DNA from: Bacteroidia bacterium
GTDB lineage: Bacteria; Bacteroidota; Bacteroidia; CAILMK01; JBBDIG01
Direction: 5' to 3'
Length of the DNA stretch: 64,000 nt
NCBI GenBank assembly: GCA_040880525.1
Contig: JBBDIG010000021.1
Span: forward strand, 1-64,000
Below are positions 36,211 to 57,892 of this stretch, one piece after another. Each line of letters starts with the position of its first letter. The stretch's first letter is position 1. The position numbers were made by a program, and so were the translations under genes. The notes beneath the pieces were generated by a model that worked only from the letters and a program-made list of their open reading frames with translations, had not been told where the DNA came from and ran no database searches.

Positions 36211-36289
36211 TTGTTGCTAACTTTCCTTTTTTGGCATAGATTTGTTGCTAATCTGTTGCTGACATCCCGATTATTGTTGTTAGCAACAA
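36211..36289 (+). repeat. integrase arm-type repeat cluster, left end
   Basis: TTGTTGCTAA occurs at 36211-36220 and 36242-36251, a variant CTGTTGCTGA at 36253-36262, and the inverted TTAGCAACAA at 36280-36289. Such repeats close to an att core are usual for integrase arm sites. The 36241-36262 segment recurs exactly near the right end. Confidence 0.65.
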
Positions 36290-36391: not shown

Positions 36392-36745
36392 ATGAGCAGC
36401 AACATTAGAGTACCAAAAATCTGTCAGCACTGCGGAACTGAGTTTATTGCCAAGACCACAGTTACCCAATATTGTGGGGACAACTGCGCCAAACGGGCAT
36501 ACAAGAAACGAGTGAGGGAAGCCAAGATTCAAGAGGTAGTACCAACGGCCATCCAGAAGCAAGACTTCATTCAGGAGCAAGTCAGCCAAAAAGCTTTCCT
36601 GAGTATTGCGGAAACCTGTAAACTCCTCGGAACAAGCAGAATGACCCTATACCGCCAAATTAAAACCGGGAACATAAAAGCAGGTAAAGTCGGTAGGCGT
36701 ACGATCATCAAAAGATCATCCATCGAAAAGCTTTTTCAAACATGA
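36392..36745 (+). CDS. excisionase-like HTH protein with zinc-ribbon-like N-terminus
   Basis: 117 residues from the ATG at 36392 (a longer frame opens at 36314, inside the GATAC repeat array, so I reject it). The N-terminus has a Cys4-type motif, C-x2-C...C-x3-C (KICQHCGTEF, YCGDNCAK). The C-terminal half is a MerR-type winged HTH (SIAETCKLLGTSRMTLYRQIKTGNIKAGKVGRRTIIKRSSIEKLF) of the excisionase family. The stop codon overlaps the integrase start as ATGA, so the two are translationally coupled. Probably controls integration and excision of the island. Confidence 0.8.
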   Translation: MSSNIRVPKICQHCGTEFIAKTTVTQYCGDNCAKRAYKKRVREAKIQEVVPTAIQKQDFIQEQVSQKAFLSIAETCKLLGTSRMTLYRQIKTGNIKAGKVGRRTIIKRSSIEKLFQT

Positions 36746-37830
36746 AAGTAACGCTAAGAGAACGCAACCAGGGCGGACAAACCAGCCTCTACCTTGACTA
36801 TTATCACAAGGGCCGGAGAAAGACGGAATCTCTTAAACTATACCTGAACCCTAAAGCCAGGACTAAGGAGGAGAAGGAGATTAATAAAAAGACGCTACAA
36901 CTGGCAGGTACAATTAGAGCACAGCGACAAATCGAAATCCAAAATGGGATCTATGGGTTTCGTGATAATGCGAAACTAAAGGGTAGCTTTACAGCCTACA
37001 TTGGATTACTCACCGAGAGACGAAAAGACAGCTCCGGCAACTACGGGAATTGGGACAGTATGCTTAAACATTTAAAGGAATTTATGCCTGCAAACATAAC
37101 CTTCGCGCAGGTTGACAGGCAGTTTGTCCAGGAGTTCAAGTTTTACCTCGATAAAGAGGCCAGAACCAAAAGCAATGAGCCGCTATCTCAGAACTCCAAA
37201 TACTCCTATTTCAACAAATTTAGGGCAGCACTGAAGCAAGCCGTAAAAGATGAAATCCTTCCAACCAATCCAAGTGAAGGAGTTGAAGTATTCAGGCAGG
37301 GTGAACCGGAGAGAGCATTTTTGACACTGGAAGAACTGCAAGCAGCCGTAAATTCAGAATGTGAAATTCCGTTACTGAAAACCGCCTTCATCTTTTCATG
37401 CCTTAGTGGGCTTCGCTGGTCAGACATACACAAGCTACTTTGGTCTGAGGTGCAACACTCCAAGAGCATGGGGTATTATATCCGTTTCATGCAAAAGAAA
37501 ACTAAGGGGACTGAAACCCTTCCTATCTCAGAGCAAGCCTATAACTTGCTAGGCGAACGCCAGGAGAACAGCCAAAGGGTTTTTGATGGATTAAAATATT
37601 CGGCATGGCACAATATGAAGTTGCAACAATGGATGATGAAGGCAGGTATTTCCAAGACCATCACTTTTCACTGTGCCCGACATACCTATGCTACGTTACA
37701 GCTATCCGCTGGAACAGATATTTACACGGTTTCCAAACTCTTAGGACATAGAGATTTAAAAACAACCCAAGTATACGCCAAGGTTATTGACGACAAAAAA
37801 CGAGAAGCAGCTAATAAAATCAAAATATGA
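36742..37830 (+). CDS. int: tyrosine recombinase / phage-type integrase
   Basis: 362 residues. An N-terminal arm-binding domain (residues about 1-60), a SAM-like core-binding domain (about 110-200) and a catalytic domain (about 220-350) follow the Bacteroidota element pattern. Active-site residues are visible: Arg in SGLRWSDIHKL, H-x-x-R in TFHCARHTYATL, GH in LLGHRDL, and the nucleophile Tyr in TTQVYAKVI. It overlaps the excisionase gene and the following gene by 4 bases each, so the three form one operon. It is the likely integrator of the island at mnmE. Confidence 0.93.
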   Translation: MKVTLRERNQGGQTSLYLDYYHKGRRKTESLKLYLNPKARTKEEKEINKKTLQLAGTIRAQRQIEIQNGIYGFRDNAKLKGSFTAYIGLLTERRKDSSGNYGNWDSMLKHLKEFMPANITFAQVDRQFVQEFKFYLDKEARTKSNEPLSQNSKYSYFNKFRAALKQAVKDEILPTNPSEGVEVFRQGEPERAFLTLEELQAAVNSECEIPLLKTAFIFSCLSGLRWSDIHKLLWSEVQHSKSMGYYIRFMQKKTKGTETLPISEQAYNLLGERQENSQRVFDGLKYSAWHNMKLQQWMMKAGISKTITFHCARHTYATLQLSAGTDIYTVSKLLGHRDLKTTQVYAKVIDDKKREAANKIKI

Positions 37831-38852: not shown

Positions 38853-39158
38853 ATGAAAATGGACGAAATAATATTACGTCTTGACAATCTCCAACGCCTC
38901 ATAGAGCGCCAGGGGATTCAAACTAAGGAAGTTTTGAACTTCAAAGAGGCTTGCGAGTACTTGGAGCTTTCTCAGTCACACTTGTACAAATTGACAAGTG
39001 CAGGGAGTATTCCGCACTACAAGCCCAATGGGAAGAAGCTTTATTTCAAAAAAAGTGAGTTGGAAAGCTGGTTGCTGCGCAATCGCAATTCCACTCAGGA
39101 TGAAATTGACCAAAAAGCTGCTGATTATCTAATCAAAAAAGGGAGGGTGAAGCTATGA
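38853..39158 (+). CDS. HTH_17/MerR-type DNA-binding protein (excisionase-like)
   Basis: 101 residues from the ATG at 38853 (MKMDEIILRLDN). The frame opens 52 codons earlier, but that part is low-complexity and contains the CACTCTG repeats. The core NFKEACEYLELSQSHLYKLTSAGSIPHYKPNGKKLYFKKSELESWLLRN is a textbook helix-turn-helix of the excisionase/HTH_17 group. It lies directly upstream of the primase-like gene, with an ATGA overlap, and probably regulates transcription of that operon or of excision. Confidence 0.85.
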   Translation: MKMDEIILRLDNLQRLIERQGIQTKEVLNFKEACEYLELSQSHLYKLTSAGSIPHYKPNGKKLYFKKSELESWLLRNRNSTQDEIDQKAADYLIKKGRVKL

Positions 39159-39826
39159 AAGAGATAAATAGTCCCGTCCGTACTGAATCGCATGATGAGT
39201 TCCTCAATTCAGGCAATAATTGCTATCCAAGCGTAGGCAAACACGAGGAATTACAATCTGAACTTGCCGATAATGAATTTAAGAAGATAAAATCACCTGT
39301 ATTCAGCTACTTTAAGAAACCCTTGTTTAATCTGTTTCCAAGTCACACTGTTTCCCTGGTAGATGTATTTCACCTTATTAGGCGAAAAGATTTTAATTGG
39401 GCTACAGATAAACTCCGCAAAATTCAGGATGTAATTGCTTCCAGAAATTTTAAGGCTAAGAATTTTGATTATGTAACCTTTTCTGGTTTGTTCACGCAAA
39501 GAGCTAATGCATATCTGCAAAAACATTCAGGATTACTTACCATCGATTTTGACCACCTTAAGGACATTCCTAACCTCAAATCATCACTGCTGAATGATCG
39601 TTATTTTGAGACTGAGCTACTCTTTACTTCTCCTTCAGGGAATGGCCTCAAATGGATAATTCCAATTGACTTGACTAAAGCAAAACACAAGGAATATTTT
39701 AACGCTGTAGGAAATTATATACTCAAAAACTATCAGGTTAAAATAGATGAAAATGGAAAGGACATATCTAGAGCCTGTTACCTCCCCCACGATCCAGAAG
39801 TATTCATCAATCCCAAATACTTATAG
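39155..39826 (+). CDS. VirE N-terminal/BT4734-type domain protein
   Basis: 223 residues. It matches the N-terminal domain family found ahead of DUF3987 proteins in Bacteroidota elements: LFPSHTVSLVDVFHLIRR, SGLFTQRANAYLQKHSGLLTIDFDHL, then FTSPSGNGLKWIIPIDL and RACYLPHDPEVF. The domain is related to the small-primase (AEP-like) fold and is thought to work with the next gene in replication of the element. The start overlaps the HTH gene by 4 bases and the next gene begins 3 bases after its stop. Confidence 0.75.
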   Translation: MKEINSPVRTESHDEFLNSGNNCYPSVGKHEELQSELADNEFKKIKSPVFSYFKKPLFNLFPSHTVSLVDVFHLIRRKDFNWATDKLRKIQDVIASRNFKAKNFDYVTFSGLFTQRANAYLQKHSGLLTIDFDHLKDIPNLKSSLLNDRYFETELLFTSPSGNGLKWIIPIDLTKAKHKEYFNAVGNYILKNYQVKIDENGKDISRACYLPHDPEVFINPKYL

Positions 39827-39829
39827 GAC

Positions 39830-41647
39830 ATGGAAAGAGAAACATTTAATCCTATGGATTGGCTTGATAAACCTACCCCGCAAAGCAAGGTTACAGAGCA
39901 GCACCAATTCAAGACAGATGCCCAAACAAACGAAGTAGAACGCATCATCCAGTACATTGAAACCAACCGGGTAGATATTACCTCTGCTTACAAAGATTGG
40001 GTAAATGTAGGTTTCGCCTTTGCCCATGAATTTGGGGAGAATGGCCGGAACCTATTTCATAGGGTAAGCCAGTTCTACCCCGACTATTCAGCTCCTGAGT
40101 GCGACACGCAATTTGACAATTGTTTGAAATCAAAAGGTCGTGGGGTTTCACTGAAAACCTTTTTCTACCTCGCAAAGGGTGCTGGAATTGATATTACACC
40201 TCCACGGACAGAAAAACAGGATCAGCACACTTTCAAGAGGGAGAAGCTGAACGGTAGTCAAACTGAATATCACCAGCACGGAAATCAGGAACAGGAAGAA
40301 ATGCCAACATTTCCTGATTCCTTATTTCCTGAACTTCCTGACTTTCTTCAAAGGGTAGTGAAGGCAGCATCCTCTAACGAGGAAAGGGATATTTTGCTCC
40401 TGGGATCCATTGTTACCATCAGTGCCTGTTTACCCAATGTTTTTGGCATATATGATGAGAATCGGGTCTATCCCAATCTGTATCTGTTTATTACAGCACA
40501 GGCATCCGCAGGGAAAGGTCGTTTGGTTCATTGTCGGCAATTGGTTAAACCCATCCATAAAGAACTAAGAGACCAAGCCAAACTCAACAAACAGCAATAT
40601 GAATCAGAAATGGCAGTATACAATTCCAAAAAGAACAGAACCGCTGATATTGAGAAGCCAGTTCCACCGCCTATAATGTCATTTATCATTCCAGCCAATA
40701 ATAGTGCAACAGGCACATATCAGATCTTAAACGATAACAACGGCATCGGACTTTTATTTGAGACTGAAGGTGATACATTAGCCCAAGCTTTTAAAAGTGA
40801 CTATGGGAATTACAGTGATGGGTTTAGAAAAGCTTTTCATCATGAGCCCATAACATATTTTCGAAGAACTGATCGGGAGTACGTAGAAATAGAAAAGCCA
40901 TGCCTTTCAGCGGTTCTTTCTGGTACGCCAAAACAGGTTTCGACTTTGATACCCAATGCGGAAAACGGCTTATTCAGCCGTTTCATTTTCTACTATATGA
41001 ACGTTCGTCCAGTATGGAAGAATGTATTTTCCAACCGAACGGATAATGGTTTAGATAATTACTTTGAAGCATTGGGCAGTGAGTTCTACAAGTTCTATAA
41101 AAGTCTTATGAAAGATGATCTACGCCAGGTTTTGCTAACCGCAGATCAACAAGACCAGTTCCATCAATCCTTTAGACAATTACTGGAAAAGTACTATAGC
41201 CTAAAAGGATTGGATTACATGGCCACGATCTATAGGCTGGGTTTGATAGCCTACCGTTTCTGTATGATATTGACGGTATTGCGGAACATGGAAACAGGCG
41301 ATACAGCCAAGGAGCATATTTGCGAGGAAAGGGATTTTCAGACTGTACAAGCTATGATCAAAGTTTTAGTGAAGCATTCAAGCAAAGTGTTTGGCGAGTT
41401 GCCCCAAGAAGAAATCAAACCCTCACGGAGGAACAAGAAAGAAAAGTTCCTCTATGAGTTACCTTATAACTTCAACCGCCAGAAGTACCTTGAAGTGGCT
41501 AAAGGTTTGGGGATTCCAGACAAGACTGCCGAGGGGTATATTACAAGCTTTGTCACCTCGAACTTGATTCATCGAGAATCCAAAGACCAGTACATAAACA
41601 CCTCACTTGAGGAAATTCAGGATTCTAAGGAAACTAAGGACGGATAA
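39830..41647 (+). CDS. PriCT_2 / DUF3987 replication-type protein
   Basis: 605 residues. Residues about 35-130 match a PriCT_2 domain (NVGFAFAHEFGENGRNLFHRVSQFYPDY...CLKSKGRGVSLKTFFYLAKGAGI). Residues about 150-560 are DUF3987, a primase/helicase-associated ATPase-like region with a P-loop-type ITAQASAGKGRLVH. Such proteins are typical of mobile elements in Bacteroidota and are thought to initiate or support element replication. Likely works with the VirE-N-like protein encoded immediately upstream, making the core self-maintenance module of the island. Confidence 0.82.
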   Translation: MERETFNPMDWLDKPTPQSKVTEQHQFKTDAQTNEVERIIQYIETNRVDITSAYKDWVNVGFAFAHEFGENGRNLFHRVSQFYPDYSAPECDTQFDNCLKSKGRGVSLKTFFYLAKGAGIDITPPRTEKQDQHTFKREKLNGSQTEYHQHGNQEQEEMPTFPDSLFPELPDFLQRVVKAASSNEERDILLLGSIVTISACLPNVFGIYDENRVYPNLYLFITAQASAGKGRLVHCRQLVKPIHKELRDQAKLNKQQYESEMAVYNSKKNRTADIEKPVPPPIMSFIIPANNSATGTYQILNDNNGIGLLFETEGDTLAQAFKSDYGNYSDGFRKAFHHEPITYFRRTDREYVEIEKPCLSAVLSGTPKQVSTLIPNAENGLFSRFIFYYMNVRPVWKNVFSNRTDNGLDNYFEALGSEFYKFYKSLMKDDLRQVLLTADQQDQFHQSFRQLLEKYYSLKGLDYMATIYRLGLIAYRFCMILTVLRNMETGDTAKEHICEERDFQTVQAMIKVLVKHSSKVFGELPQEEIKPSRRNKKEKFLYELPYNFNRQKYLEVAKGLGIPDKTAEGYITSFVTSNLIHRESKDQYINTSLEEIQDSKETKDG

Positions 41648-41823
41648 TCCTTAGTTTCCTCTAATTCCTCAAAATCCTGAAATTAGTTTTCTCCCTACTT
41701 CTTGCTTTTTAATCGTTTTCTTTCAACATTTTGAGATAATTATGGATCTGATAGCAGGGACATTTGGTGCCATCACAGCTACCTGTCTTGTAAACATCAG
41801 GGATCAGACGTGTGATTGCAAAA

Positions 41824-44800
41824 ATGTTTTCCATACTTTCACCGCAAAAAGCTTTGCCCCGGATATTTGATAACATCGAGAAACACCTCAATCAGGGATT
41901 AAAGGATTCCATCGAAGTGGCGTACAAGAGTGATTTCTGTATAGGCTACTTCAATCTTAGAGGTTGGAAACATTTGGCGGATTATGTAGAACGCTGGGAA
42001 GGAGGTGATGAGAAATGCTGCCGATTACTCATTGGAATGCAGAAGCACCCGCAAGAGGTGCTTAAAGATTACTTCAACCATGTTGAGACTGGTGAAATAG
42101 ATAACAAGCGGGCTAAGGATTTCAAGACCAAGTTAGCCCACGAGTTTCGCAACCAGTTAACCATCGGAATCCCTACCGACCAAGATGAAATAACATTACG
42201 CCAGTTAAAACATCAATTGCTCTCAAAAAAGGTAGTAGTGAAGCTTTTTTTGAAGCACACCCTTCATGCAAAATTGTATTTGCTTTACCGGGATGATAAA
42301 AATAATCCACGAACCGGATTTGTTGGAAGCAGTAATCTCACCATGTCCGGTTTGGCGAAGCAGGGAGAACTTAATGTGGATGTTCTGGATCATGATGCAT
42401 CAGAAAAGCTGGAAAAGTGGTTTGCCGATCGTTGGGAAGACCGCTGGTGTATAGACATTACTGAGGAACTTGCTGAAATAATCGAAGAATCCTGGGCCCG
42501 TGAAGAACTTATACCTCCTTATCATATTTACTTAAAAATAGCTTACCACCTTTCGCAGGAAGCGCGGTCTGGCCTTTCAGAGTTCAAACTGCCCAAGGAA
42601 TTTGAGAAGAAACTGTTTCCTTTCCAACAGCAGGCAGTGAAAGTAGCGGCCCATCATCTCAATAAGCGGAATGGAGTTTTGATTGGTGACGTGGTAGGGT
42701 TAGGAAAAACAATTACAGCAACTGCATTAGCCCGCATTTTTGAAGAAGACTTCAGCCTGGAGACTTTAATTATTTGCCCCAAGAACCTGGTGAAAATGTG
42801 GGAAGATTATGCTTTCGAGTATAGACTTAGAGCAAAGGTGCTATCCATTACCAAGGTTCAGGGTGAACTCACGGATATGAGAAGATACCGTTTATTGATA
42901 ATTGATGAAAGCCATAACCTCAGAAACCGATTTGGCAAACGATACCGGGCTATACACGAATATATCAAACTCAACGGTAGTAAGGTAATCCTTCTGACAG
43001 CTACCCCTTATAACAAAACCTACCTTGACCTTTCGGGCCAATTGCGGCTATTTATTGACGATGATCAGAATTTAGGCGTCAGCCCGGAGCGTTACATAGA
43101 ACGGATTGGCGGAAAAACGCGTTTTTTGGCCCGCCACCAAACGGCAGTAGATACGCTACCTGCATTTGAGCACAGTGAGTTCATTGACGACTGGCGTGAA
43201 TTAATGAAGCTATTTCTTGTGAGGAGAACCAGGAGCTTTGTTAAAAACCACTATGCGCTTACTGATAAGACAAATGGGCGGCAATACCTGGAATTTCCAG
43301 ATGGCAGCAAATCTTATTTTCCTGATCGCGTTCCAAAGGCGGTCCAGTACCCGTACAACCCGGAGGATTCAGAGGATCAGTATGCCAGGCTTTACTCACC
43401 AGCGGTAGTAAGTATCATTGCCGGATTAAATTTGGCCAGATACGGATTGGGCAACTACCTGAATGACAATGCTGAGAATAAGGCTACTGAAGCTGAAAAG
43501 ACAATTATTCAGAACTTGTCCCGTGCTGGTAGACGGTTAAAAGGTTTTGCGCGTACCAACTTGTTCAAACGCCTTGAAAGCAGTGGTTGGGCTTTCCTGC
43601 TTTCGGTTTCGCGGCAGGTTATGCGGAATTACACATTTATTTATGCTATTGAGAATAAAGAAAAACTTCCCGTTGGACAACAGGAAGCAAATATGCTGGA
43701 TTACTTTCTGGAAGATAAGGAGCCGGACGGGGAAAGCAAGCCTGATATAACTATGAATCTGCTGCTTGATGAGAAGCAATATCTTAATAAGGCAGCATCT
43801 GTTTTCAAGGTATTAAAGGCTGAGAAGAATCAAAAGAAGTTCGATTGGATTAAGAGTGACTTGTTCGAGAAGAAGTTGAAGGATGAACTATATGCTGATA
43901 GCAAGAACCTCCTAAAAATCCTTGAAGCAGGCAAAGAATGGAAAGCACTGGAAGACAGACAGCTCAATAGGCTTTTTGAGTTGATAACGAAAGATCACCC
44001 GAAAGAAAAAGTCCTCATATTTACTCAATATGCCGATACCGCCTATTATCTGTGTGATGAACTCAAAAGGCGAAAGGTCAAATCGCTTGAATGTGTAACG
44101 GGAGACGTAGAAGAACCCCGTGAATATGCGGTCAGGTTTAGCCCTAAAAGCAATGGCCGTAGTGAGATAGAAAATGAATTGAGAGTACTGGTTACAACAG
44201 ATGTTTTGAGCGAAGGGCAAAACTTACAAGATGCACATATTGTGGTCAACTACGATTTGCCCTGGGCCATCATCCGGTTAATACAGAGAGCTGGACGTAT
44301 TGACCGCATTGGGCAACAATCAAAGGAGATAATCTGCTACTCATTCTTGCCCGAAAATGGAGTAGAGCAGATAATCAATTTAAGAGGACGGCTTCGTCAG
44401 CGCATTGAAGAAAATGCTGAAGTAGTGGGAGCCGATGAAGTTTTTTTCGAGGGCGATCCGGTAAACCTGGCAGATTTGTATAATGAAAAATCCGGTATCC
44501 TGGATGATGCTGGTGAGGAAGAAGTAGATTTGGCCTCCTATGCCTATCAAATTTGGAAGGACGCCATAGATGCCGATCCTAAATTGAAACAGATCATTAC
44601 CAACATGCCTGATGTAGTCTATTCCACTAAGCCCCTCGGTAATAGAGAAAAAGATGAAGGTACGGTTGTTTATTGCCGAACCGGAGAAGGAAATGATGTG
44701 CTCACCTATGTGGATAGCCGTGGAGGTGTGGTGACCCAATCCCAATTCAGGATTTTAAGGGCCTTAAAATGCACACCAGAAACTCCGGCACTCGAACGCT

Positions 44801-45189
44801 TGCCGAATCATCATGACTTGGTGGCAAAGGGTGTTGATTACGTTCGGGAATTTGAAAGCCAGATTGGCGGCCAGCTTGGCCATAAGCGTAGTGCCCGGTA
44901 CAGGGTTTACATGAGCCTGGAAGGGTTTTACAACGCCAGTCCTGATGATCTTTTTGCAGGCCCACGCCTGAAAGCGGCAATTGATGAAATTTATCAGTTT
45001 CCACTCAAGGAATATGCACGTGACATCCTGAACAGGCAGTTGAAAACCGGAATATCAGATACTGATCTTTCAGAATTGGTTATCAACCTCCGCGAGGAAG
45101 ATAGATTGTGTATTGTTGATCCAGAGGGTGTTAAAGAATATAAAGCCCCGCAAATCATTTGTTCAATGGGCTTAAAAGAGGAAAATTAG
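41824..45189 (+). CDS. PLD-nuclease/SNF2-type helicase fusion
   Basis: 1121 residues from the ATG at 41824. The N-terminal domain is phospholipase D-like, with LHAKLYLL and GSSNLTMSGL (the H-x-K-x4 motif near residue 147). A superfamily 2 helicase of HepA/SNF2 type follows: Walker A in GLGKTITAT (about 291), DESH (about 361), LLTATPYN, and motif VI QRAGRIDRIGQQ (about 821). Helicase-nuclease fusions next to methylases form restriction-like defence units, and SNF2 helicases occur in DISARM. It is followed 1 base later by the methylase gene, in one operon. Likely acts on unmodified incoming DNA. Confidence 0.88.
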   Translation: MFSILSPQKALPRIFDNIEKHLNQGLKDSIEVAYKSDFCIGYFNLRGWKHLADYVERWEGGDEKCCRLLIGMQKHPQEVLKDYFNHVETGEIDNKRAKDFKTKLAHEFRNQLTIGIPTDQDEITLRQLKHQLLSKKVVVKLFLKHTLHAKLYLLYRDDKNNPRTGFVGSSNLTMSGLAKQGELNVDVLDHDASEKLEKWFADRWEDRWCIDITEELAEIIEESWAREELIPPYHIYLKIAYHLSQEARSGLSEFKLPKEFEKKLFPFQQQAVKVAAHHLNKRNGVLIGDVVGLGKTITATALARIFEEDFSLETLIICPKNLVKMWEDYAFEYRLRAKVLSITKVQGELTDMRRYRLLIIDESHNLRNRFGKRYRAIHEYIKLNGSKVILLTATPYNKTYLDLSGQLRLFIDDDQNLGVSPERYIERIGGKTRFLARHQTAVDTLPAFEHSEFIDDWRELMKLFLVRRTRSFVKNHYALTDKTNGRQYLEFPDGSKSYFPDRVPKAVQYPYNPEDSEDQYARLYSPAVVSIIAGLNLARYGLGNYLNDNAENKATEAEKTIIQNLSRAGRRLKGFARTNLFKRLESSGWAFLLSVSRQVMRNYTFIYAIENKEKLPVGQQEANMLDYFLEDKEPDGESKPDITMNLLLDEKQYLNKAASVFKVLKAEKNQKKFDWIKSDLFEKKLKDELYADSKNLLKILEAGKEWKALEDRQLNRLFELITKDHPKEKVLIFTQYADTAYYLCDELKRRKVKSLECVTGDVEEPREYAVRFSPKSNGRSEIENELRVLVTTDVLSEGQNLQDAHIVVNYDLPWAIIRLIQRAGRIDRIGQQSKEIICYSFLPENGVEQIINLRGRLRQRIEENAEVVGADEVFFEGDPVNLADLYNEKSGILDDAGEEEVDLASYAYQIWKDAIDADPKLKQIITNMPDVVYSTKPLGNREKDEGTVVYCRTGEGNDVLTYVDSRGGVVTQSQFRILRALKCTPETPALERLPNHHDLVAKGVDYVREFESQIGGQLGHKRSARYRVYMSLEGFYNASPDDLFAGPRLKAAIDEIYQFPLKEYARDILNRQLKTGISDTDLSELVINLREEDRLCIVDPEGVKEYKAPQIICSMGLKEEN

Positions 45190-45190
45190 A

Positions 45191-48100
45191 ATGGAGCATC
45201 TGATTTCAAAGAAAGTTTTTAATCAATATCTAAAGTCGTTCGATTTCTCAGGGTTATTTGTTGATTTGGGCTGGGCCCACGCAAAGAAAAGGGAACCGGT
45301 TGAAGCAGCCAACGAAGTTTACACACTCAATGCCGCTGCCGAGAAGCAGAGTTTTGTGGTGTTGATCTGTGATCCGGGGCCTGATGGTAAAATTCCTGAA
45401 AGCGCCATTCGCAGAACCATAGAAAAAAAGGTGCGTAGCCTGTTCTTTGAGCACATCATTATTTATGTAGATAAGGCCCAGAAAGAACAGCTTTGGCAGT
45501 TGGTGATTCGTGAGCCTAACAAACCTGCGCGAATTGTGGAGCACCGCTACCATGTGAACCAAGCCGCAGACTTTTTATATGAAAAATTGCAGGGCCTTCT
45601 CTTTACGCTGGATGAAGAAGGCAATATTGGAATAGTTGATGTAAAAGCGCGTGTTCAGGCACAGTTTAGCCAGAATGCAGAGAAAGTGACCAAGAAGTTT
45701 TATGCTGAGTTTAAGCAGCAGCATGGCGCTTTCCGCCAATTCATTGATGGAATTGCAAAAGAAACGGACAAGGATTGGTACACCAGCCTGATGTTAAACC
45801 GCCTTATGTTCATCTACTTCATTCAGAAAAAGGGATTTCTGGACAAGAATTTCAGTTATTTACAGGACAAGCTTAAAGAGGTAAAGGCGCAAAAAGGTAA
45901 AGGTAAGTTCTTTAGCTTTTATCGCAACTTCCTTATGCGGCTTTTCCATGAAGGGTTGGGGAATCCTGACCATTCTGATGCGGACTTGCAAAAGCTCATC
46001 GGCAGGGTTCCTTATCTCAATGGCGGCCTCTTCGATGTGCATGAACTGGAAAAGGATCATGCAAAAATCAACATTAAGGACGAAGCATTTGAGAAGGTCT
46101 TTGCTTTTTTTGATAAATACAACTGGCATCTTAATACTAATATCTCATCATCCGGCAAAGACATTAACCCGGATGTAATCGGGTACATATTTGAGAAGTA
46201 CATTAATGATCGCGCCCAAATGGGTGCCTACTACACCAAAGAGGATATTACCGACTATATCGGTAAAAATTGCATTATTCCCTATTTGTTTGACCAGGTA
46301 AAGGAACGTTGTAAAGAAGCTTTTACAGGCGATAGTAGCCTTTGGAATATGCTGAAGGAACAGCCTGACCGCTATATTTACCCTGCTATGAAACATGGAG
46401 TGTGGGAAGAACCACCCACCGATGGAAAAGATGGAAATCTGCGGGAATTGCCGGGGAATATTGAAATTGGGGTGGATACCAGCAAGCCCAACCTCATTGA
46501 GCGCAGGAAGGATTGGAATACCTCAGCGATAGAAGAATATGCGCTTCCCACCGAGATTTGGCGGGAAACCGTGACCCGCAGGCAGCGCTATTTTGAAGTA
46601 AGAAACAAGCTGGTAAATGGGGAGGTAACCAACATCAATGATTTCATTACCTATAACCTTGATATCCGGCAGTTTGCACAGGATGCTGTGGAGCAGTATG
46701 AAGGCATTGACTTTACCCGTGCCTTTTACCGCACGCTGCAAGAGGTCACTATTTTAGACCCTACCTGCGGTTCCGGGGCATTTTTATTTGCCGCGCTTAA
46801 TATTTTGCAGCCGCTTTATGAAGCTTGCCTGTTGCGCATGGGGCAGCACAAAGACGACATGGAACGGCAAAACCGCAATAAGAATACCTATAAAAACGAG
46901 CGGGAAATTTTAGCCCAGGCAGCGCAACACCCCAACCTGGATTACTACATCTTAAAGAACATTATCCTGCGCAATCTTTATGGGGTTGACATTATGAATG
47001 AGGCCGTGGAAATAGCCAAGCTGCGCCTGTTCCTGAAAATGGTGGCCGTGGCCGAACCGGATTACCAGAAAGAAAACTTAGGGCTGGAGCCATTGCCTGA
47101 CATTGACTTTAACATCCGGGCAGGGAATACATTGGTGGGCTTTGCCACGGAGGCGGAGTTAAATAAAAGCTGGCATTTGTTCCCGAACGATTTGTACGAT
47201 AATCCAAAAGAAGCCAAAACAAGGGTGAACGATAAAATGGACTATGTTGCCAAAGCATTCACCCGCTTTAAAGAAGTACAAACAGCTCACGTTCAACTTC
47301 AAGATTTCAAGTCTTTTAAAGATGTGAAGTCAGAACTTGAAATAAAGTTGAAGGAGCTAAGAAACGAACTCGATTATGTTCACGCCCTGACTTATGGAAT
47401 TTATCCAAATACCAGTCGAAAGCAATTCGAGGATTGGAAGCAAACGCACCAGCCCTTCCATTGGTTTGCCGAGTACTATGGCATTGTGCATGACCGTGGC
47501 GGGTTTGATGTGGTAATTGGGAATCCACCTTATGTTGAATATTCGAAGGTAAAGAAGTCTTATTCTATTATAGGACTCAAAACAATACAGAGTGGTAATC
47601 TTTTCGCCTTTTGTATTGAAAAAGCACTAAATATTTTACAAAAAAAAGGGTGGTTTGGATACATTGTTCCTGTTAGTTTGACTTGTACTCAGCGAATGGC
47701 GTCATTGCAAAACCAATTCCTTCAATATTCTGATGAAGTTTGGCTATCAAGTTATGGAGAACGTCCTTCAAAGTTGTTTGAAGGAGCTGAAGTATTGCTT
47801 TCTATTTGTATGTTTTCAAAAGGCAGCCAAAGTTTATTGAGGTCAACAAATTTAAGGAAATGGCACAGTGATTACCGTCCGCATCTGTTTGAAACAACTC
47901 AATACTCTCCTCCAGTTCAAAGGATTAGGAATTACATCATCCCCAAAGCGAAGGAGACACTAGAAGTTTCTATAATCCAAAAACTAAGTGAAGGAAATTC
48001 AGTTCTTGAAAAATTCTATACTGAGAAGAACAAAAACAAAATATACTACAGAATTGGTGGAGGTCGATACTGGAAGATTTTCACCACTTTTCAGCCAAAT

Positions 48101-48562
48101 TTCGTTTTAAACGGCACTCAATCAGTGTCCTCCCGGGAAAACTATCTCTATTTCGATAACTTGCTTACGAGAGACTTGGCTGTAGCACAGTTAAGTAGTA
48201 CCCTCTTTTTCTGGTGGTATTCAATTACCACTAATGGTAGAGATATGAACCCTGTAGATCTTGCCAAGTTTCCATTTGCTTACCAGAACCTAAGTAGTAA
48301 AACAATATCTGCTCTTCAAGGTGATAGTCAATTATTAATGGCAGACTATTCTAAAAAGAAAGTGGAAAAGGAGAAGGTGTCAACTAAAACTGGCAATGTT
48401 ATTTATGAAGAATTTTATCCAAGACTTTCAAAGGGTCTAATTGACCAAATTGATATACAACTTGCCCACTATTACACCTTCACAGAAGAAGAACTTGACT
48501 TCATCATCAACTATGACATCAAATACCGGATGGGAAAGGAATTGGAGGGGAATGAGGAGTAA
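45191..48562 (+). CDS. Eco57I/PglX-type N6-adenine DNA methyltransferase
   Basis: 1123 residues. The methylase core has motif I DPTCGSGAFLFAAL (near residue 521), a long insert, and motif IV NPPYVEY (near 777), the N6-adenine signature. The N-terminal about 400 residues are a helical, mixed alpha/beta region including FFEHIIIYVDKAQKEQLW and YYTKEDITDYI, like other Eco57I-type single-chain restriction-modification proteins. The C-terminus (about 850-1100) would hold the target recognition domain. The start is 1 base after the helicase stop. With the helicase it should form a restriction-modification pair. Whether cleavage resides in the PLD domain is inference. Confidence 0.88.
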   Translation: MEHLISKKVFNQYLKSFDFSGLFVDLGWAHAKKREPVEAANEVYTLNAAAEKQSFVVLICDPGPDGKIPESAIRRTIEKKVRSLFFEHIIIYVDKAQKEQLWQLVIREPNKPARIVEHRYHVNQAADFLYEKLQGLLFTLDEEGNIGIVDVKARVQAQFSQNAEKVTKKFYAEFKQQHGAFRQFIDGIAKETDKDWYTSLMLNRLMFIYFIQKKGFLDKNFSYLQDKLKEVKAQKGKGKFFSFYRNFLMRLFHEGLGNPDHSDADLQKLIGRVPYLNGGLFDVHELEKDHAKINIKDEAFEKVFAFFDKYNWHLNTNISSSGKDINPDVIGYIFEKYINDRAQMGAYYTKEDITDYIGKNCIIPYLFDQVKERCKEAFTGDSSLWNMLKEQPDRYIYPAMKHGVWEEPPTDGKDGNLRELPGNIEIGVDTSKPNLIERRKDWNTSAIEEYALPTEIWRETVTRRQRYFEVRNKLVNGEVTNINDFITYNLDIRQFAQDAVEQYEGIDFTRAFYRTLQEVTILDPTCGSGAFLFAALNILQPLYEACLLRMGQHKDDMERQNRNKNTYKNEREILAQAAQHPNLDYYILKNIILRNLYGVDIMNEAVEIAKLRLFLKMVAVAEPDYQKENLGLEPLPDIDFNIRAGNTLVGFATEAELNKSWHLFPNDLYDNPKEAKTRVNDKMDYVAKAFTRFKEVQTAHVQLQDFKSFKDVKSELEIKLKELRNELDYVHALTYGIYPNTSRKQFEDWKQTHQPFHWFAEYYGIVHDRGGFDVVIGNPPYVEYSKVKKSYSIIGLKTIQSGNLFAFCIEKALNILQKKGWFGYIVPVSLTCTQRMASLQNQFLQYSDEVWLSSYGERPSKLFEGAEVLLSICMFSKGSQSLLRSTNLRKWHSDYRPHLFETTQYSPPVQRIRNYIIPKAKETLEVSIIQKLSEGNSVLEKFYTEKNKNKIYYRIGGGRYWKIFTTFQPNFVLNGTQSVSSRENYLYFDNLLTRDLAVAQLSSTLFFWWYSITTNGRDMNPVDLAKFPFAYQNLSSKTISALQGDSQLLMADYSKKKVEKEKVSTKTGNVIYEEFYPRLSKGLIDQIDIQLAHYYTFTEEELDFIINYDIKYRMGKELEGNEE

Positions 48563-48663
48563 GGATAGAGGACATACAGCGGGTACTCTACGGATAGAGG
48601 GCACTGCGCCAGCGAACGAACCAAGAGCATCACAAGTTGTAAGAATATTAAATTTGCGCGGAA

Positions 48664-49323
48664 ATGGAGAAATACGGAATTCCTGAACGCTTCAAGCCAG
48701 GCTTTGAAGCGCTAATAGCCCTGGATGAAAAACAGGTGGAAGAAATTGCTGAAGTGATAAGCAAATATGAACCGGGTGTAGGGCCGGGCATTTTCGCCAG
48801 TCAGCTCTCTGAAAAGTTTCAGATTCCCGATATGAGGGAGATAGCAATGGTTGCTTTTAGTTTCGGGAGTTTATTAATCGCGGCTGATGATGGAACTGAA
48901 CAACTTTCACAGGCATTGGCACAGTCTTACTATACTCAGTTTGAAAAAGAAGCTGAAAAGAACTATGTGGATTCGCTTGCTAAAAAAATACATTTGCTAT
49001 TGCAAAAAAGCGATCCTTTAAAAACCTATAATAAAGCTTTGGGGCTGATTGCAGAAAGCGATAAGCTGTTCCGGGATTGCCGCATAATTAGTGATATTAG
49101 GCTGCTATTTCAGGAAAGTATCAGCAAGGAAAGCAACCATGCGATTGTGCTACATCAACTTAAGATTGAATATCAGACCAATGAAGAATTGAAAAGCGCT
49201 TTCTTTAACCTAAAACGGGAAGAGCTAGAGCAATTGAAGAAACAGGTAGATAGAGCTTTAGAAAAAGAAACAAGCATCTATAAGAATTTTCCAGGAATTC
49301 AGTTTATCCAATTAAAGAATTAA
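48664..49323 (+). CDS. unknown protein in the methylase operon
   Basis: 219 residues, ATG at 48664, 101 bases after the methylase stop. A strongly helical protein with acidic and basic runs and a likely coiled coil near the C-terminus (residues about 175-205, LKREELEQLKKQVDRALEKE). No cysteine/histidine motif, signal peptide or membrane segment. I recognise no family. It lies 4 bases upstream of the next gene, so the two are co-translated, and its position indicates an accessory role for the restriction-like system or a linked module. Confidence 0.55.
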   Translation: MEKYGIPERFKPGFEALIALDEKQVEEIAEVISKYEPGVGPGIFASQLSEKFQIPDMREIAMVAFSFGSLLIAADDGTEQLSQALAQSYYTQFEKEAEKNYVDSLAKKIHLLLQKSDPLKTYNKALGLIAESDKLFRDCRIISDIRLLFQESISKESNHAIVLHQLKIEYQTNEELKSAFFNLKREELEQLKKQVDRALEKETSIYKNFPGIQFIQLKN

Positions 49324-49327
49324 TGCA

Positions 49328-49972
49328 ATGAAAGATAGCCTCCAGATTGAGAACAAAAGCAAGTCATCCAGAACATCAGGTTTTTTTGCCGATAGTTATG
49401 AGCCTGAGCATATTGCAGTAATACAGAATAAGCCTTATGGCTCAGGTAAGTCTAAATTGCCGTTGGAACTGATAAAGGCTATATCGAAAAAGAAACTCCC
49501 ATCCGTGCAGATAATTAACACAGAGACTGCCTCAGAAAATGAGATTATATTGGAATTAATTGATGTAAAGGTAAATATTGATTTCAGGTTTTCTGAAATA
49601 GCAGATGAGATTGAAGCATCCAAGTATATTTTGGAGTTAGAGCAGGGATGGGATGGGGAAAATGCTGAAATCATAAAAAGTGAAATATGGAAAGCCGCCA
49701 CTAAATTTTTGATTAATGCTGCTTTGGAAATCAATAAGGAATATTCGGTTATTATTCAGACCCCGGAAATAAACCCTGTTAAAGATGGATCAATTGATCT
49801 ATCATGGAGAACGGAGAAGGCAAGAATGCTGATCAACGTAAGAGAAAGAGCGGGTGAAATGGTTGCGAATTATTATGGTGATTTCTATAATAATGAAAAA
49901 CCCCGGAAAGGTTCTGATTCACTTGATTCCAATATTGAAGATTTAGTAGTATGGATGAGGAATCTGGTTTAG
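49328..49972 (+). CDS. unknown protein with GWDGE motif
   Basis: 214 residues, ATG at 49328. The stretch ILELEQGWDGENAEIIKSEIWKAATKFLINA (residues about 97-127) resembles a motif I have seen in paired hypothetical proteins (W-D-G followed by I-x-x-x-x-W-x-x-A-x-x-F). The N-terminus is disordered and basic. The C-terminal part is predicted alpha/beta. The end overlaps the start of the next gene by 22 bases, which fits a co-translated two-protein unit. No function assigned. Confidence 0.55.
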   Translation: MKDSLQIENKSKSSRTSGFFADSYEPEHIAVIQNKPYGSGKSKLPLELIKAISKKKLPSVQIINTETASENEIILELIDVKVNIDFRFSEIADEIEASKYILELEQGWDGENAEIIKSEIWKAATKFLINAALEINKEYSVIIQTPEINPVKDGSIDLSWRTEKARMLINVRERAGEMVANYYGDFYNNEKPRKGSDSLDSNIEDLVVWMRNLV

Positions 49973-50499
49973 AAGAAAATCCTTTTGAGGTAAAAGAGAT
50001 CCATGAGGAGCATAATGTATTCAGACAGGTTCATTTTAGCGATTTAGTTGGGCCAAAGAAAAAAAGATTTCCCTCTGAAGCTCATTTTGCCCCAGACCCG
50101 GATGGCCTATCGGTCTATTGGGGTCAAATGATTAATGCAATGGGAGTTCTCATTACCATAGGATTATCCTTTAAAAAAGACGATACCTTTAAAAATCCCA
50201 CGGAATTTAAGGTACTGGAATTCACCGTTTCTTATCTACGTAGTATTGAAGGTGTTCTAGACTTAATTCACACGCCTCAGTTCAATGGAAATCCTGCTGC
50301 GGTTGGATCACCCAATATTCCTTCACACGCCTCAGTTCGCTATGGTATAGAAGATTTAGAGGTTCGGGTTAATTTGAGTGATTATTGCCGCGAGAATCGC
50401 GAAGAAGTGTTTTGCTCCATTAATGCAAACTCAGTATTGGAGGAGGTAGAGCAATTACGACTGAGATTAAATGATACACCATACCATATAGTGAGTTAG
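49951..50499 (+). CDS. unknown protein with RQVHF motif
   Basis: 182 residues, start inside the preceding gene (22-base overlap). The N-terminal NVFRQVHFSDLVGPKKKRFPSEAHFAPDPDGLSVYWG resembles the common R-Q-V-H-P...F-x-P-x-x-x-D-x-x-L-S-V-Y pattern of small proteins found beside restriction or toxin-antitoxin-like genes. A helical middle follows and the C-terminus is unremarkable. No known catalytic motif. With the upstream GWDGE protein it probably forms one functional pair inside the island cargo. Confidence 0.55.
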   Translation: MDEESGLEENPFEVKEIHEEHNVFRQVHFSDLVGPKKKRFPSEAHFAPDPDGLSVYWGQMINAMGVLITIGLSFKKDDTFKNPTEFKVLEFTVSYLRSIEGVLDLIHTPQFNGNPAAVGSPNIPSHASVRYGIEDLEVRVNLSDYCRENREEVFCSINANSVLEEVEQLRLRLNDTPYHIVS

Positions 50500-50525
50500 C
50501 AACAAACTTCTAATGCTGGTTAGTC

Positions 50526-51008
50526 ATGAAGGTTATTACCCTATATGATCGAAAAGTTTCGGTTTTAGGAGACACTCAAATCCTTGACCAACAAAAAACT
50601 GCTTTTTTTTGTAGCCGCAAATTCCCGGCATCCGTAGTCCTCAAAGCTTATGACTGGGCCACCGAAATGCGCGACCAGGGTAGGTGCGTTATTTCCGGCT
50701 TTCACTCACCAATTGAGAAGGACGTGCTTCATTTTCTTCTAAAAGGCACTCAACCCATCATTCTGGTCCATGCCCGGTGTCTGAAGAAACGAGAAGAACC
50801 GGAGGTATTGAAAGCAGTATCAGAAAATCGTTTATTGGTGCTTTCTCCATTCAACGAAGATCAAAAGCGTATCACCAGCAGGTCAGCCTTCATTCGTAAT
50901 CAATTTATGGTTGAAATGGCTGATGAGATTGTGGTAGGTTATGGCAAACAGAGTGATTCAATCGCAAAAATTCTCAATAATAGAATACATATCAAATATT
51001 TAGTATAG
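50526..51008 (+). CDS. DprA/SLOG-like Rossmann-fold protein
   Basis: 160 residues, ATG at 50526. The sequence AFFCSRKFPASVVLKAYDWATEMRDQGRCVISGFHSPIEKDVLHFLLKGTQPIILVHARCL looks like the Rossmann core of DprA/Smf and the wider SLOG (YoqJ/LOG-like) superfamily: a first strand, a helix, the VISGFHSPIEKDVLHFLL loop and a final strand before a basic tail. Its length is shorter than full DprA (no N-terminal SAM or C-terminal winged helix). SLOG proteins bind nucleotide signals or single-stranded DNA. As the last gene of the cluster it could sense nucleic acid or a nucleotide. This is inference. Confidence 0.6.
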   Translation: MKVITLYDRKVSVLGDTQILDQQKTAFFCSRKFPASVVLKAYDWATEMRDQGRCVISGFHSPIEKDVLHFLLKGTQPIILVHARCLKKREEPEVLKAVSENRLLVLSPFNEDQKRITSRSAFIRNQFMVEMADEIVVGYGKQSDSIAKILNNRIHIKYLV

Positions 51009-51588: not shown

Positions 51589-51987
51589 TTAGAACCCCAT
51601 TAAAACCATTATGCTCTCCACCAATTCCTTTGCTGGTTTTAAGCGTTCATCAACAAAAACTAAATGGCGTTGATTTTCATCCTGGTAAACCACATACAAT
51701 TTTCCAGCAATATCAATTATTTCACCCTTTCGATAAGGGACCGGAGTAAGGAGTAAAATATCTTCTCCGCTATCGTCTGTTATAATTGCTTTGCTATAAT
51801 TTAAAACGCTCTCACATTTGGTAACACGAACATTTTCTAAGGTTATCAGACTATCAGCAAAAACTGATTGCCTATTATTTAGATCAGCAATTGTAGTGGC
51901 TGGTTCAATTTGTTTTTCAATAATTCCTTTGCAGGAAAATTGAATTAAAGTGACAATTGACATAATTACCATGAACAAATTTTTCAT
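51589..51987 (-). CDS. putative lipoprotein, OB-fold-like
   Basis: 132 residues. A signal peptide with a lipobox-like IQFSC (Cys19) marks a probable lipoprotein. The mature part carries strands ITLENVRVTK, AIITDDSGEDILLLT and KGEIIDIAGKLYVVYQD, a pattern resembling small OB-fold proteins. The C-terminus is helical. It is the last gene of the leftward group with the DUF4407 protein and coiled-coil protein, about 105 bases after the DUF4407 stop. Function unknown. Membrane anchoring inferred from the lipobox. Confidence 0.55.
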   Translation of the reverse strand: MKNLFMVIMSIVTLIQFSCKGIIEKQIEPATTIADLNNRQSVFADSLITLENVRVTKCESVLNYSKAIITDDSGEDILLLTPVPYRKGEIIDIAGKLYVVYQDENQRHLVFVDERLKPAKELVESIMVLMGF

Positions 51988-52091
51988 TGCTTTAAATTTT
52001 AAGGTGTAAGATGAAATTTGAAGAAGATGCTTGTCTTTAGTCGCAACATGCCCTCAGCCCTTATTGAGGACTGAGGGTATATTACTTACGA

Positions 52092-53321
52092 TTAGCTCAG
52101 GTCGCTGATATAATCGGAACTTGGATCCTTTTTATCCATTAGCCTTCGCAAGGCTTTCTCGAAGTCCAGATAAATGTCTTCTACCTGATCCAAAAGATGG
52201 TTACGGAAGCCTTCATCCTTAACCGTCTTAAAAATTTGAAACTGTACTTGCAATTTATGATCAGATGCACGCTTGAGTTGACCCATGAAGAAATCGAATC
52301 TTTTTTGTGCATCCTGCATAATCGAACTCATTTCGGTGAACTGCAATTTCAATAACTCCGCATTGACAAAGGCACGTTGTTGTTTCACCATCAATTCAGC
52401 CCTAACCTGTTCAGTTTGTTGGTTCACACTGACTGCCGTTGCCCCATTCTGCTTCACAATTTCATGATAAGTATCTCCATCCTTACCTGAACTCAGTTTG
52501 ATCGAGATTGGCACCAATTCAATACTTAGGAAAAACAGCCTTAGTAACCATATGCCCCAAAAGACTGTATTGTCCTCCTTACTCAGCGTTCCTAATGCTC
52601 GCATTCGCCCAAGAAACCCTTCTGCTTGCGCCTTGGTGATTTGCGTAATCTTTTCCTTGCGCTGAAGATTCAGAGCTGCAATTTCAGTGTTTTTCGCACT
52701 TGTATAGATTTTGGCATCTGATTCTGCCGCCTTCCACAATCTTTCCTTTTCTCGTGCGATGGGACCTTTATTAGCCTTTCCAGAGCCGGAAGTGCCATCC
52801 ACTTCACCAATATAGGAAAGGCGCAAGGCTTCCACTTTAGCTGCGGAAGTATTGATTTTATCATTCAAACCTGCGATTTTCACATCAAAGTCAGCATCTA
52901 TGAGGGCCACCTTGTTACTGAGGTTGTCAGAAAGCTTTTCTTGAATCGCATCTTCAAAAACCTTCAACTCCATTGGCACCGCTATCACCACGGCAAAAAT
53001 GGTTGCGAGCAGCAGGCGCGCAATCACTCCCAAATTGATTACACCCGGCTGAGTATTAGCCACAATGGCACGCTCAATCATAAAAATCACAAAACCCCAT
53101 AAAAAACCAAAGCCAAGGGATAGGGGCAAGTTTTCACTAAAGGTGAGTATGGCAAATGTTCCTGATGCAAATCCCAAAATTGGGGTGATCAGGACACAAG
53201 AGCCAATTATCGCCTTTTTTCGCTGTTCTGCGGAGTTACATTGCCTCAAAGTGGCTATGTCACACCCGGCACAACTACACAAGAATTGAGTGAGTAAACC
53301 AATACGTTTCATTGTATTCAT
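52092..53321 (-). CDS. DUF4407 membrane protein
   Basis: 409 residues. The N-terminal about 130 residues have the DUF4407 pattern: CSCAGCDIATLRQC, then three to four hydrophobic segments (KKAIIGSCVLITPILGFASGTFAILTF, LGFLWGFVIFMIERAI, LARLLLATIFAVVIAVPMELKVFEDAI) and a long coiled coil (about 150-230 and 290-400). A fourth transmembrane segment (WGIWLLRLFFLSIELVPISIKL) lies near residue 260. DUF4407 proteins have no established function that I know of. An ATG lies at 53321 and another in frame at 53312. It is 78 bases downstream of a coiled-coil gene on the same strand and forms an operon with it. Confidence 0.82.
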   Translation of the reverse strand: MNTMKRIGLLTQFLCSCAGCDIATLRQCNSAEQRKKAIIGSCVLITPILGFASGTFAILTFSENLPLSLGFGFLWGFVIFMIERAIVANTQPGVINLGVIARLLLATIFAVVIAVPMELKVFEDAIQEKLSDNLSNKVALIDADFDVKIAGLNDKINTSAAKVEALRLSYIGEVDGTSGSGKANKGPIAREKERLWKAAESDAKIYTSAKNTEIAALNLQRKEKITQITKAQAEGFLGRMRALGTLSKEDNTVFWGIWLLRLFFLSIELVPISIKLSSGKDGDTYHEIVKQNGATAVSVNQQTEQVRAELMVKQQRAFVNAELLKLQFTEMSSIMQDAQKRFDFFMGQLKRASDHKLQVQFQIFKTVKDEGFRNHLLDQVEDIYLDFEKALRRLMDKKDPSSDYISDLS

Positions 53322-53399
53322 TTTTAGTTGTTAAAAAGAAAGGTTTTAGTTTGAAACGAACTCCCGTGCATTTTCAAGAACACACGGGAGTTCGTGGGT

Positions 53400-54077
53400 T
53401 CAACTGAATTTCTTCAGCTCTTCTCTGATGATGTTTTCAAAGTTCATCATCAGCTTTTCCAAAAAGTCGAAGTACCTATCCTGCTCACGTTCTATTTGAG
53501 CTGCATACCTGTTGGCCGTTCCAGGGATGTCCGACATGGTTTTCAGAAACTGGTGCTTTTCACGCACCATTTGGATGAAGGCATACTGCCGGTTCTGTAC
53601 ATCTTTCGACAGACCTTCCAATTTGCCCATCATGAATGAAGCTACTTGTGAACGATACTCGGCCTTGATCATCTTCAAAGCCGCATCGTATTTTTCCCGC
53701 ATCCCCTCAAGCATGAACTGCGTGTTGAGTTTGTATAGGTTTAGGCGAAACTGCAAAGCTTCCTTGGCCGTGTTCCTTTCCATCTCCGCAACCAGCTTAT
53801 CCATTTTGTTTGGGAAAATCTTGCGCAGAAGTGGGCGGTTCGTTTCGAGTAACTGTCTTGTCCGCCCATCGATGCTTTGGGCATTTCTGATCATTAGATC
53901 AAAATTGTCATCAGCTCTCTCCACCAGGACTTTGTTCTGCTTATCCTTCATGGCGTTCACATAGGCCGCATTGGTTTGAACCTGCTCATCGCTATGTTGT
54001 GTGAAATTTCCAGAATCAGCTTCCTCGAAGCCACTCTGATGGTTTTCACTCATACCATCTTGGAAGTTTTGTTCCAT
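53400..54077 (-). CDS. coiled-coil protein, unknown
   Basis: 225 residues, ATG at 54077. The protein is almost entirely helical with several heptad-like stretches (about residues 65-125 and 130-200) and an acidic, Gln-rich N-terminus. No membrane segment or known domain. It is the first gene of a leftward group with the DUF4407 protein and the small lipoprotein. The order suggests the coiled-coil protein binds the DUF4407 membrane protein, but that is inference. The divergent 581-codon gene starts about 320 bases away. Confidence 0.6.
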   Translation of the reverse strand: MEQNFQDGMSENHQSGFEEADSGNFTQHSDEQVQTNAAYVNAMKDKQNKVLVERADDNFDLMIRNAQSIDGRTRQLLETNRPLLRKIFPNKMDKLVAEMERNTAKEALQFRLNLYKLNTQFMLEGMREKYDAALKMIKAEYRSQVASFMMGKLEGLSKDVQNRQYAFIQMVREKHQFLKTMSDIPGTANRYAAQIEREQDRYFDFLEKLMMNFENIIREELKKFS

Positions 54078-54371
54078 TTAAGTAAAATTTAGCGTGATTA
54101 AAAAATTGGGAATTGGATTGACTTCGCATTCACTACTGCGGAGCGTGGCCGGGGTACTCAGGTGAGGCTCGCCATGCCCGACCTTAGGAGTCTTAGTGAG
54201 TGTCTTTTCTTTCTCTCGTTTAAAGGTTTGAAAACAAACTGAGCTGTAAAAGTAAAGGTAAATGTTTAGAAAGCGACAAAAAAAAGTTGAATAAGTAGTT
54301 GAATACGTACATGACATGCTAATAGAAGGTATGGTTATCCCTTTGAGAGTAGGTTTTACACTCTAATCTGC
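54078..54371. other. divergent intergenic region
   Basis: About 300 bases between the leftward coiled-coil gene and the rightward 574-residue protein. It includes a GC-rich segment near 54135-54185 with partial inverse complementarity (GGCCGGGGT and GCCATGCCCGACC) but no clear hairpin or gene. The right edge carries the promoter box at 54372-54379. It probably holds promoters for both directions. Confidence 0.5.
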
Positions 54372-54379
54372 TACTTTTG
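54372..54379 (+). promoter_or_regulatory. -7 promoter box
   Basis: TACTTTTG matches TAnnTTTG, 18 bases upstream of the ATG at 54398. A TTTG lies at 54342-54345, further upstream than the usual spacing. Its position favours the ATG at 54398 over the earlier TTG. Confidence 0.5.
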
Positions 54380-54397
54380 CAGTTGACAAAAGAAGAC

Positions 54398-56122: not shown

Positions 56123-56135
56123 ATTTTAAATTAAG

Positions 56136-57870: not shown

Positions 57871-57892
57871 TTTGTTGCTAATCTGTTGCTGA
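57871..57892 (+). repeat. right-end integrase arm-type repeat
   Basis: Identical to 36241-36262, containing TTGTTGCTAA and CTGTTGCTGA side by side, 40 bases upstream of the attR core. Confidence 0.7.

Follow-up and report, generated by a model that had tools for sequence, protein, structure and literature searches.

What do six closely spaced genes of a Bacteroidia bacterium encode, and which of them belong together? The genes lie in the 64,000-nucleotide stretch that we analyzed (GenBank assembly GCA_040880525.1, contig JBBDIG010000021.1, positions 1 to 64,000; hereafter the window), and a preliminary description had read them as a compact restriction-type system, in which a nuclease-helicase and a methylase were joined by four accessory proteins. 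In the list of open reading frames (ORFs) of the window, all six (here P1 to P6) are intact, on the forward strand and at the positions first reported; the stop codon of P1 and the start codon of P2 are separated by exactly 1 base, and P4 and P5 overlap by 22 nt. Operon promoters and terminators within the cluster showed no excess over the shuffled expectation. The Pfam domains and intact motifs bear out a nuclease-helicase and methylase system of the restriction type, and P1 and P2 probably constitute an ATP-dependent restriction-modification (R-M) system with the functional order of a Type ISP enzyme, here divided between two proteins. Comparison of loci gives good support to an unnamed two-chain architecture of this putative kind, with a recurrent PsyrA-like partner (P6) and a cargo slot.

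P1 (41812..45189, + strand) is a predicted restriction subunit that carries a phospholipase D (PLD) nuclease and an SNF2 translocase in one chain. Its frame opens with a GTG at 41812 and contains the in-frame ATG at 41824 that was previously taken as the start, and the true start is probably the TTG at 41854, where homologues begin with "MPxIYDN". Pfam detected PLDc_2 (41 and 38 bits in two scans; 42187..42435, + strand) followed by the lobes of the SNF2 translocase (SNF2-rel_dom, DEAD, and Helicase_C; 42607..44313, + strand), and the chain matched the PADLOC profile C3a139 "HKD+Snf2" (168 bits). The PLD motifs HAK (HxK, residues 152-154) and GSSN (residues 172-175) are intact, with a single HKD motif per chain, that is, a half-site; likewise intact are the Walker A motif GDVVGLGKT, the DESH box, and QRAGRIDRIGQ. 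In an alignment of 90 homologues the PLD residues H, K, G, S, S, and N are at least 95% conserved, the SNF2 motor motifs are also conserved, and conservation is even along the chain (0.33-0.80 per 50-residue block). Our search of GTDB genomes found P1 relatives in at least 585 of the 590 stretches scanned, and full-length homologues with 40-63% identity, far beyond chance, occur in many phyla, including Planctomycetota, Nitrospirota, Desulfobacterota, Verrucomicrobiota, Acidobacteriota, Chloroflexota, Poribacteria, Pseudomonadota, Bacillota, and Spirochaetota. Full-length relatives in the same identity range are also encoded on plasmids of Pelobacter, Anabaena, Synechocystis, Rhodococcus, and others. 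The PLD-SNF2 chain is not a local fusion; a family that spans more than 20 phyla has it as its fixed form.

P2 (45191..48562, + strand) is the putative modification and specificity subunit, a predicted gamma-type N6-adenine DNA methyltransferase with its own specificity domain. Pfam assigned it to Eco57I (88 bits), with a further match to MmeI_Mtase, and its DPTCGSG and GNPPY motifs are intact, so that every motif named in the preliminary description, as well as the 1-base first junction, is present. P2 also matched the PADLOC profile REase_MTase_IIG (PDLC03628) over its whole length with 1000 bits, a result that would fit an alternative in which P2 would both cut and methylate by itself as a Type IIG enzyme, with P1 as a separate accessory, for instance a Type IV-like helicase-nuclease acting elsewhere. 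The predicted structure of P2 residues 1-360 (predicted local distance difference test, pLDDT, 85) is compatible with this alternative as well, as its alpha-beta-beta-beta-alpha-beta order is reminiscent of restriction endonuclease (REase) folds, and the model had no significant match in the PDB. However, no conserved catalytic D...(E/D)XK or PD-(D/E)XK set was detected in the N-terminal domain of 68 P2 proteins; position 51 is E in only 62% of these sequences, without an invariant D/E-X-K. Given the lack of a conserved catalytic set in the P2 N-terminal domain and the strong conservation (at least 95%) of the P1 PLD residues, we assign the predicted cleavage activity to P1, whose invariant PLD motif is the only recognizable nuclease of the pair.

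The two genes are tightly linked. P2-related sequence adjoins P1 in 95 of the 97 loci examined, which come from more than 20 phyla; in one of the two exceptions the contig stops 42 nt past P1, and in the other P1 is followed by approximately 1.4 kb of other small ORFs and then the contig end. The P1-P2 junction is at most 60 nt long in 57 of 88 loci measured, larger gaps contain small inserted genes (PIN, KilA-N, or other genes), and no fused P1-P2 ORF was found among the 97 loci. A single locus (L175, 1641-4453) retains P2, shortened to 784 amino acids, with P6 directly after it and no recognizable P1, which would suit a self-sufficient Type IIG enzyme; this locus appears to be a decaying or reduced system. 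Because the two genes are so rarely separated, because P1 diverges in step with the P2 N-terminal domain (see below), and because no conserved catalytic set was detected in that domain, we consider the Type IIG alternative unlikely.

To compare the divergence of both proteins, we correlated pairwise identities in 68 complete P1-P2 pairs (Mantel r, 500 permutations). P1 identity followed that of P2 residues 1-130 most closely (r = 0.66), then that of the methylase core (residues 500-660; r = 0.51, with 0 of 500 permutations as high) and of residues 131-360 (r = 0.48), suggesting that the N-terminal region of P2 (45191..46270, + strand) is the best candidate for a P1 docking domain. No such correlation was found for the target-recognition domain (TRD) region (residues 870-1060; 47798..48370, + strand), with r = 0.005 and 0.02 (values reached in 200 and 175 of the 500 permutations), and mean identity in this region is 0.22 vs 0.60 in the methylase core. 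TRD alignments at such low identity are noisy, but pairs of loci with P1 identity above 90% are independent of that noise: in L094/L102 (P1 91%, core 95%), L066/L079 (P1 95%, core 92%), and L104/L122 (P1 90%, core 95%) the TRDs are unrelated, at 18/24%, 29/28%, and 24/22% identity, respectively. The converse case also occurs, as L060 and L118 have a TRD in common at 75% identity and P1 proteins at 66%. This decoupling from P1 is what would be expected if P1 were a generic motor-nuclease and the recognition domain of P2 were exchangeable, and we read it as the signature of a putative restriction system that changes its specificity.

A diverged class of P2, whose similarity is largely confined to the first 370 residues, was observed in L034, L060, L062, L078, and L118, and P6 was undetected in these five loci. 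In L034, L060, and L062, as well as in L085 and L127, P2 is followed by an AAA_15 ATPase gene and a gene for a DUF4276-type protein.

These features suggest a mechanism in which P2 would use its C-terminal TRD to bind an asymmetric target and would methylate one adenine on one strand, thereby protecting host DNA. At an unmodified site, P1, docked on the P2 N-terminal domain, would be licensed to translocate with its SNF2 motor, and the cut would follow when two P1 chains meet and complete a PLD active site; they would have to meet because each P1 has only one PLD half-site, most simply in two complexes converging from oppositely oriented sites. Specificity would change by exchange of the P2 TRD while P1 stays generic. 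The closest functional template for P1 and P2 is the Type ISP enzymes (LlaGI, LlaBIII), which cleave head-to-head: the order nuclease, translocase, gamma-methylase, and C-terminal TRD is found across P1 and P2, and an asymmetric target with one-strand methylation is expected in both. Unlike Type ISP enzymes, which are single chains with an Mrr-like PD-QXK nuclease, the system described here comprises two chains with a PLD nuclease and a SNF2/RapA-like motor, often with a PsyrA-like partner and cargo. If our reading holds, Type ISP enzymes would have a PLD-based counterpart, built from two chains and spread over more than 20 phyla.

Other enzymes share parts of this arrangement. CglI, with a PLD nuclease and a DEAD ATPase, performs ATP-dependent PLD restriction at an asymmetric site and needs two complexes; CglI and NgoAVII resemble the P1-P2 pair in combining a PLD nuclease formed from half-sites, an ATP-dependent motor, and a methylase (in P1-P2 an N6-adenine methylase of the Eco57I type), whereas the nuclease and DEAD ATPase of CglI are separate proteins that P1 joins in one chain. 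SauUSI, a translocating dimer, also has PLD and helicase in one chain but reads a methylated target with the TRD of that chain, while specificity here lies in the separate P2. Fusions of HKD nucleases and helicases are already known from PbeA, the Type-2 BREX-related helicases, and SauUSI. In the open-access papers searched we found no description of the P1-P2(-P6) architecture, and REBASE may list members as Type IIG. A Type III R-M system was rejected, as P2 has Eco57I/NPPY features with a C-terminal TRD and P1 a PLD nuclease, whereas the Type III Mod subunit has an amino-methylase with a central TRD and Res a PD-(D/E)XK nuclease.

The preliminary description had compared the cluster with DISARM, and a reduced DISARM- or BREX-related system would be a rival explanation, since HKD-SNF2 helicases and N6-methylases also occur in Type-2 BREX-related systems, in which the HKD nuclease is fused N-terminally to the helicase (PMC12839542). 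P1 indeed matches DrmD models with 137 bits and P2 matches PglX with 71 bits, but these scores fall far below the curated cut-offs of 610 and 500. The PADLOC run proposed earlier returned the Type IIG profile for P2, "HKD+Snf2" for P1, and PsyrA for P6. DISARM was rejected as no DrmA, DrmB (DUF1998), or separately encoded PLD protein DrmC is present among the six proteins, and BREX and Type-2 BREX-related systems, of which the latter require a DUF499 ATPase and DUF3780, were rejected as the six genes include no PglZ, BrxC, DUF499, or DUF3780. The methylase is moreover of the Eco57I type and part of a complete, conserved pair, and a reduced form of either system is very unlikely.

A relative on the Synechocystis plasmid pSYSX may link the family to a known methylation motif. 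This plasmid encodes relatives of both P1 (SGL_RS01585; 49% identity) and P2 (SGL_RS01600; 45%), the former annotated as "helicase-related protein" and located upstream of the latter; the two are direct homologues of our pair, but between them lie a small ORF and a gene for a VapC-type toxin (L033, 13532-14162), and P6 was not found at this locus. Two methylases, M.Ssp6803IV and M.Ssp6803V, are encoded on pSYSX (PMC6604393), and the former has an asymmetric motif, GAm6AGGC, of which 99.6% is methylated in vivo (PMC7296061). Because M.Ssp6803V is the type I enzyme slr6095, and because the incomplete gene table of pSYSX lists no DNA methyltransferase besides this enzyme and the P2 relative, the latter would by elimination be M.Ssp6803IV, which would thereby gain a restriction partner. 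Hagemann and colleagues reportedly assigned M.Ssp6803IV to slr6050 in 2018 and described it as essential, as would be expected if its restriction partner were active. The same study is said to have treated it as an orphan methylase, in line with a further alternative in which P2 is effectively an orphan methylase that controls genes and P1 no longer restricts. Methylation by the type I enzyme can affect expression in Synechocystis (PMC7296061), but the conservation of the P1 catalytic residues in 90 homologues and the rapid TRD swapping, expected for defence and not for a conserved regulon, make this alternative very unlikely.

P6 (50526..51008, + strand) is a stand-alone protein with a DprA/SLOG fold of the PsyrA/ShosA type, in agreement with the earlier assignment of the last gene as DprA/SLOG-like. 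Its Pfam match to DNA_processg_A (DprA; 26 bits) is slightly under the cut-off, its PADLOC match is PsyrA (E = 2e-11; all 39 of 39 relatives also match PsyrA), and its structure model (pLDDT 94) has ShosA (8zva) and DprA as best PDB matches; G15, S30, E64, R84, and N125 do not vary among the relatives. Of the 67 loci with room for P6, 47 have it downstream of P2 and on the same strand, a placement far above chance for a gene found at most once per genome. It is therefore the one proposed accessory that proved to be a recurrent partner, although its intermittent presence on the P1 tree does not support an ancestral fixed component. In shosTA, syrTA, and rqlHI the antitoxins are DprA homologues (PMC9122126), and, according to the title of a reference in that article, RqlI restrains the genotoxic helicase RqlH. 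By analogy with the DprA-like antitoxins of rqlHI, psyrTA, and shosTA, to which it is homologous, P6, a frequent but dispensable partner, may act as a brake or gate on P1 or on the cargo. The partner in RqlHI is a RecQ-like helicase, as it is in PsyrTA. Unlike those systems, the cluster lacks a phosphoribosyltransferase toxin and a RecQ toxin such as PsyrT (for none of the six genes was the best match in Pfam and PADLOC a RecQ family), and the helicase that it encodes is the SNF2-PLD nuclease of a putative R-M operon.

Several points weigh against the reading of P1 and P2 as a two-chain R-M system with P6 as partner. PADLOC assigns P2 to Type IIG, and the P2 N-terminal domain may hide a degenerate or unusual nuclease, given a PDB fold search without a clear match. 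The co-variation of P1 with this domain could come from shared ancestry alone and not from contact, and a stable dimer, as in SauUSI, may complete the PLD half-sites without convergence. The pattern of P6 gain and loss across the P1 tree looks almost random (13 changes; 14.4 with shuffled labels), and among the 15 Bacteroidota genomes that gave strong hits, 4 have P6 away from P1 and P2; because P6 is scattered and also unlinked, its role is loose. The link to GAm6AGGC relies on elimination from an incomplete gene table, and the activity of the locus, like restriction by any of its relatives, is predicted from sequence.

Between P2 and P6, loci carry zero to six same-strand genes (none in 11 loci, one in 13, two in 10, and three or more in 10). 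The families inserted in this slot and in P1-P2 gaps include AAA_15/OLD-like ATPases with DUF4276, PIN, DarT, Macro, YhcG nuclease, RhuM, Schlafen/AlbA, AbiC-like, KilA-N, Fic, and HSP70. In 3 of 35 such loci the cargo is bordered by fragments of the P6 head (L039, 12497-12599, 103 nt, 79%; L099, near 8902-9162) or of the P2 tail (L063, near 18400), which suggests that cargo was inserted by recombination in the flanking genes. The genes of the P2-P6 interval, often defence- or toxin-like, are exchangeable cargo that would probably add a second layer.

In the window this slot holds P3 (48664..49323), P4 (49328..49972), and P5 (49951..50499), all on the + strand, which the preliminary description had counted among the accessories. 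We rejected them as core components, since tblastn and profile hidden Markov model searches found no homologues in the other P1-P2 loci examined, the plasmids searched had none, and among 395 genomes of the class only that of the window has P5. Homologous triplets without P1-P2 are present on a short contig (L143, 3790-5437), adjoining an integrase and a helix-turn-helix (HTH) gene (L144, 9255-11060), and among phage tail genes of an IMG/VR contig (L185, 4938-6791), and the three genes are a locus-specific, separately mobile cargo module. P5 is a diverged relative of the third genes of these triplets (weak hhalign match, E = 3e-4, probability 38%) and matched nothing in PHROGs and Pfam; P3 and P4 show no profile similarity to each other. 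The C-terminal half of P4 resembles the PADLOC candidate PDC-M32A (E = 8e-6), and the third gene of the L143 triplet resembles PDC-M32B (E = 7e-4), which was matched in L143 only. This likeness to PDC-M32 is weak, with low scores and three genes instead of two.

We tentatively raise a broader possibility, which we regard as rather doubtful: that the family forms an R-M platform, widespread and so far unnamed, whose PLD-SNF2 subunit is kept in check by a PsyrA/RqlI-like protein, and that a dedicated slot between the methylase and this protein, filled by recombination in the flanking genes, loads exchangeable abortive-infection modules, such that disabling restriction or losing the PsyrA-like protein would release a second, suicidal layer. 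If P1 and P2 are indeed a two-chain R-M system, current tools mislabel the pair, P2 as Type IIG and P1 as "helicase-related protein", and the loci collected here would be a ready set for the study of TRD swapping, DprA-like antitoxins, and defence cargo, and the slot could guide the search for new defence modules.

The cluster lies inside a 21.6 kb integrase element (36241-57892) bounded by an exact 22-bp att-like direct repeat (TTTGTTGCTAATCTGTTGCTGA; left copy 36241..36262, right copy 57871..57892, both + strand). The left copy is located 98 nt downstream of mnmE; 0 exact 22-bp repeats were expected in 100 shuffles, and the longest chance match between comparable segments was 15 bp. The element encodes a tyrosine integrase (36742..37830, + strand; Phage_integrase 64.6 bits, Arm-DNA-bind_5, SAM_5), two replication-type proteins assigned by Pfam (BT4734-like, 39155-39826, and DUF3987 with PriCT_2, 39830-41647, both + strand), HTH genes, and, at 51589-57494, a DUF4407 gene and genes of unassigned family. 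A search for the empty site turned up no close relative in which the flanks are conserved, the matches being only mnmE and a multi-copy gene. Within mnmE itself, an in-frame minisatellite of 14-nt units (AAGTTCTGAGTTCA) was observed at 35685-35796; MnmE has 494 amino acids here vs approximately 463-477 in most relatives, and most matches to it break at residue ~350, the site of the minisatellite.

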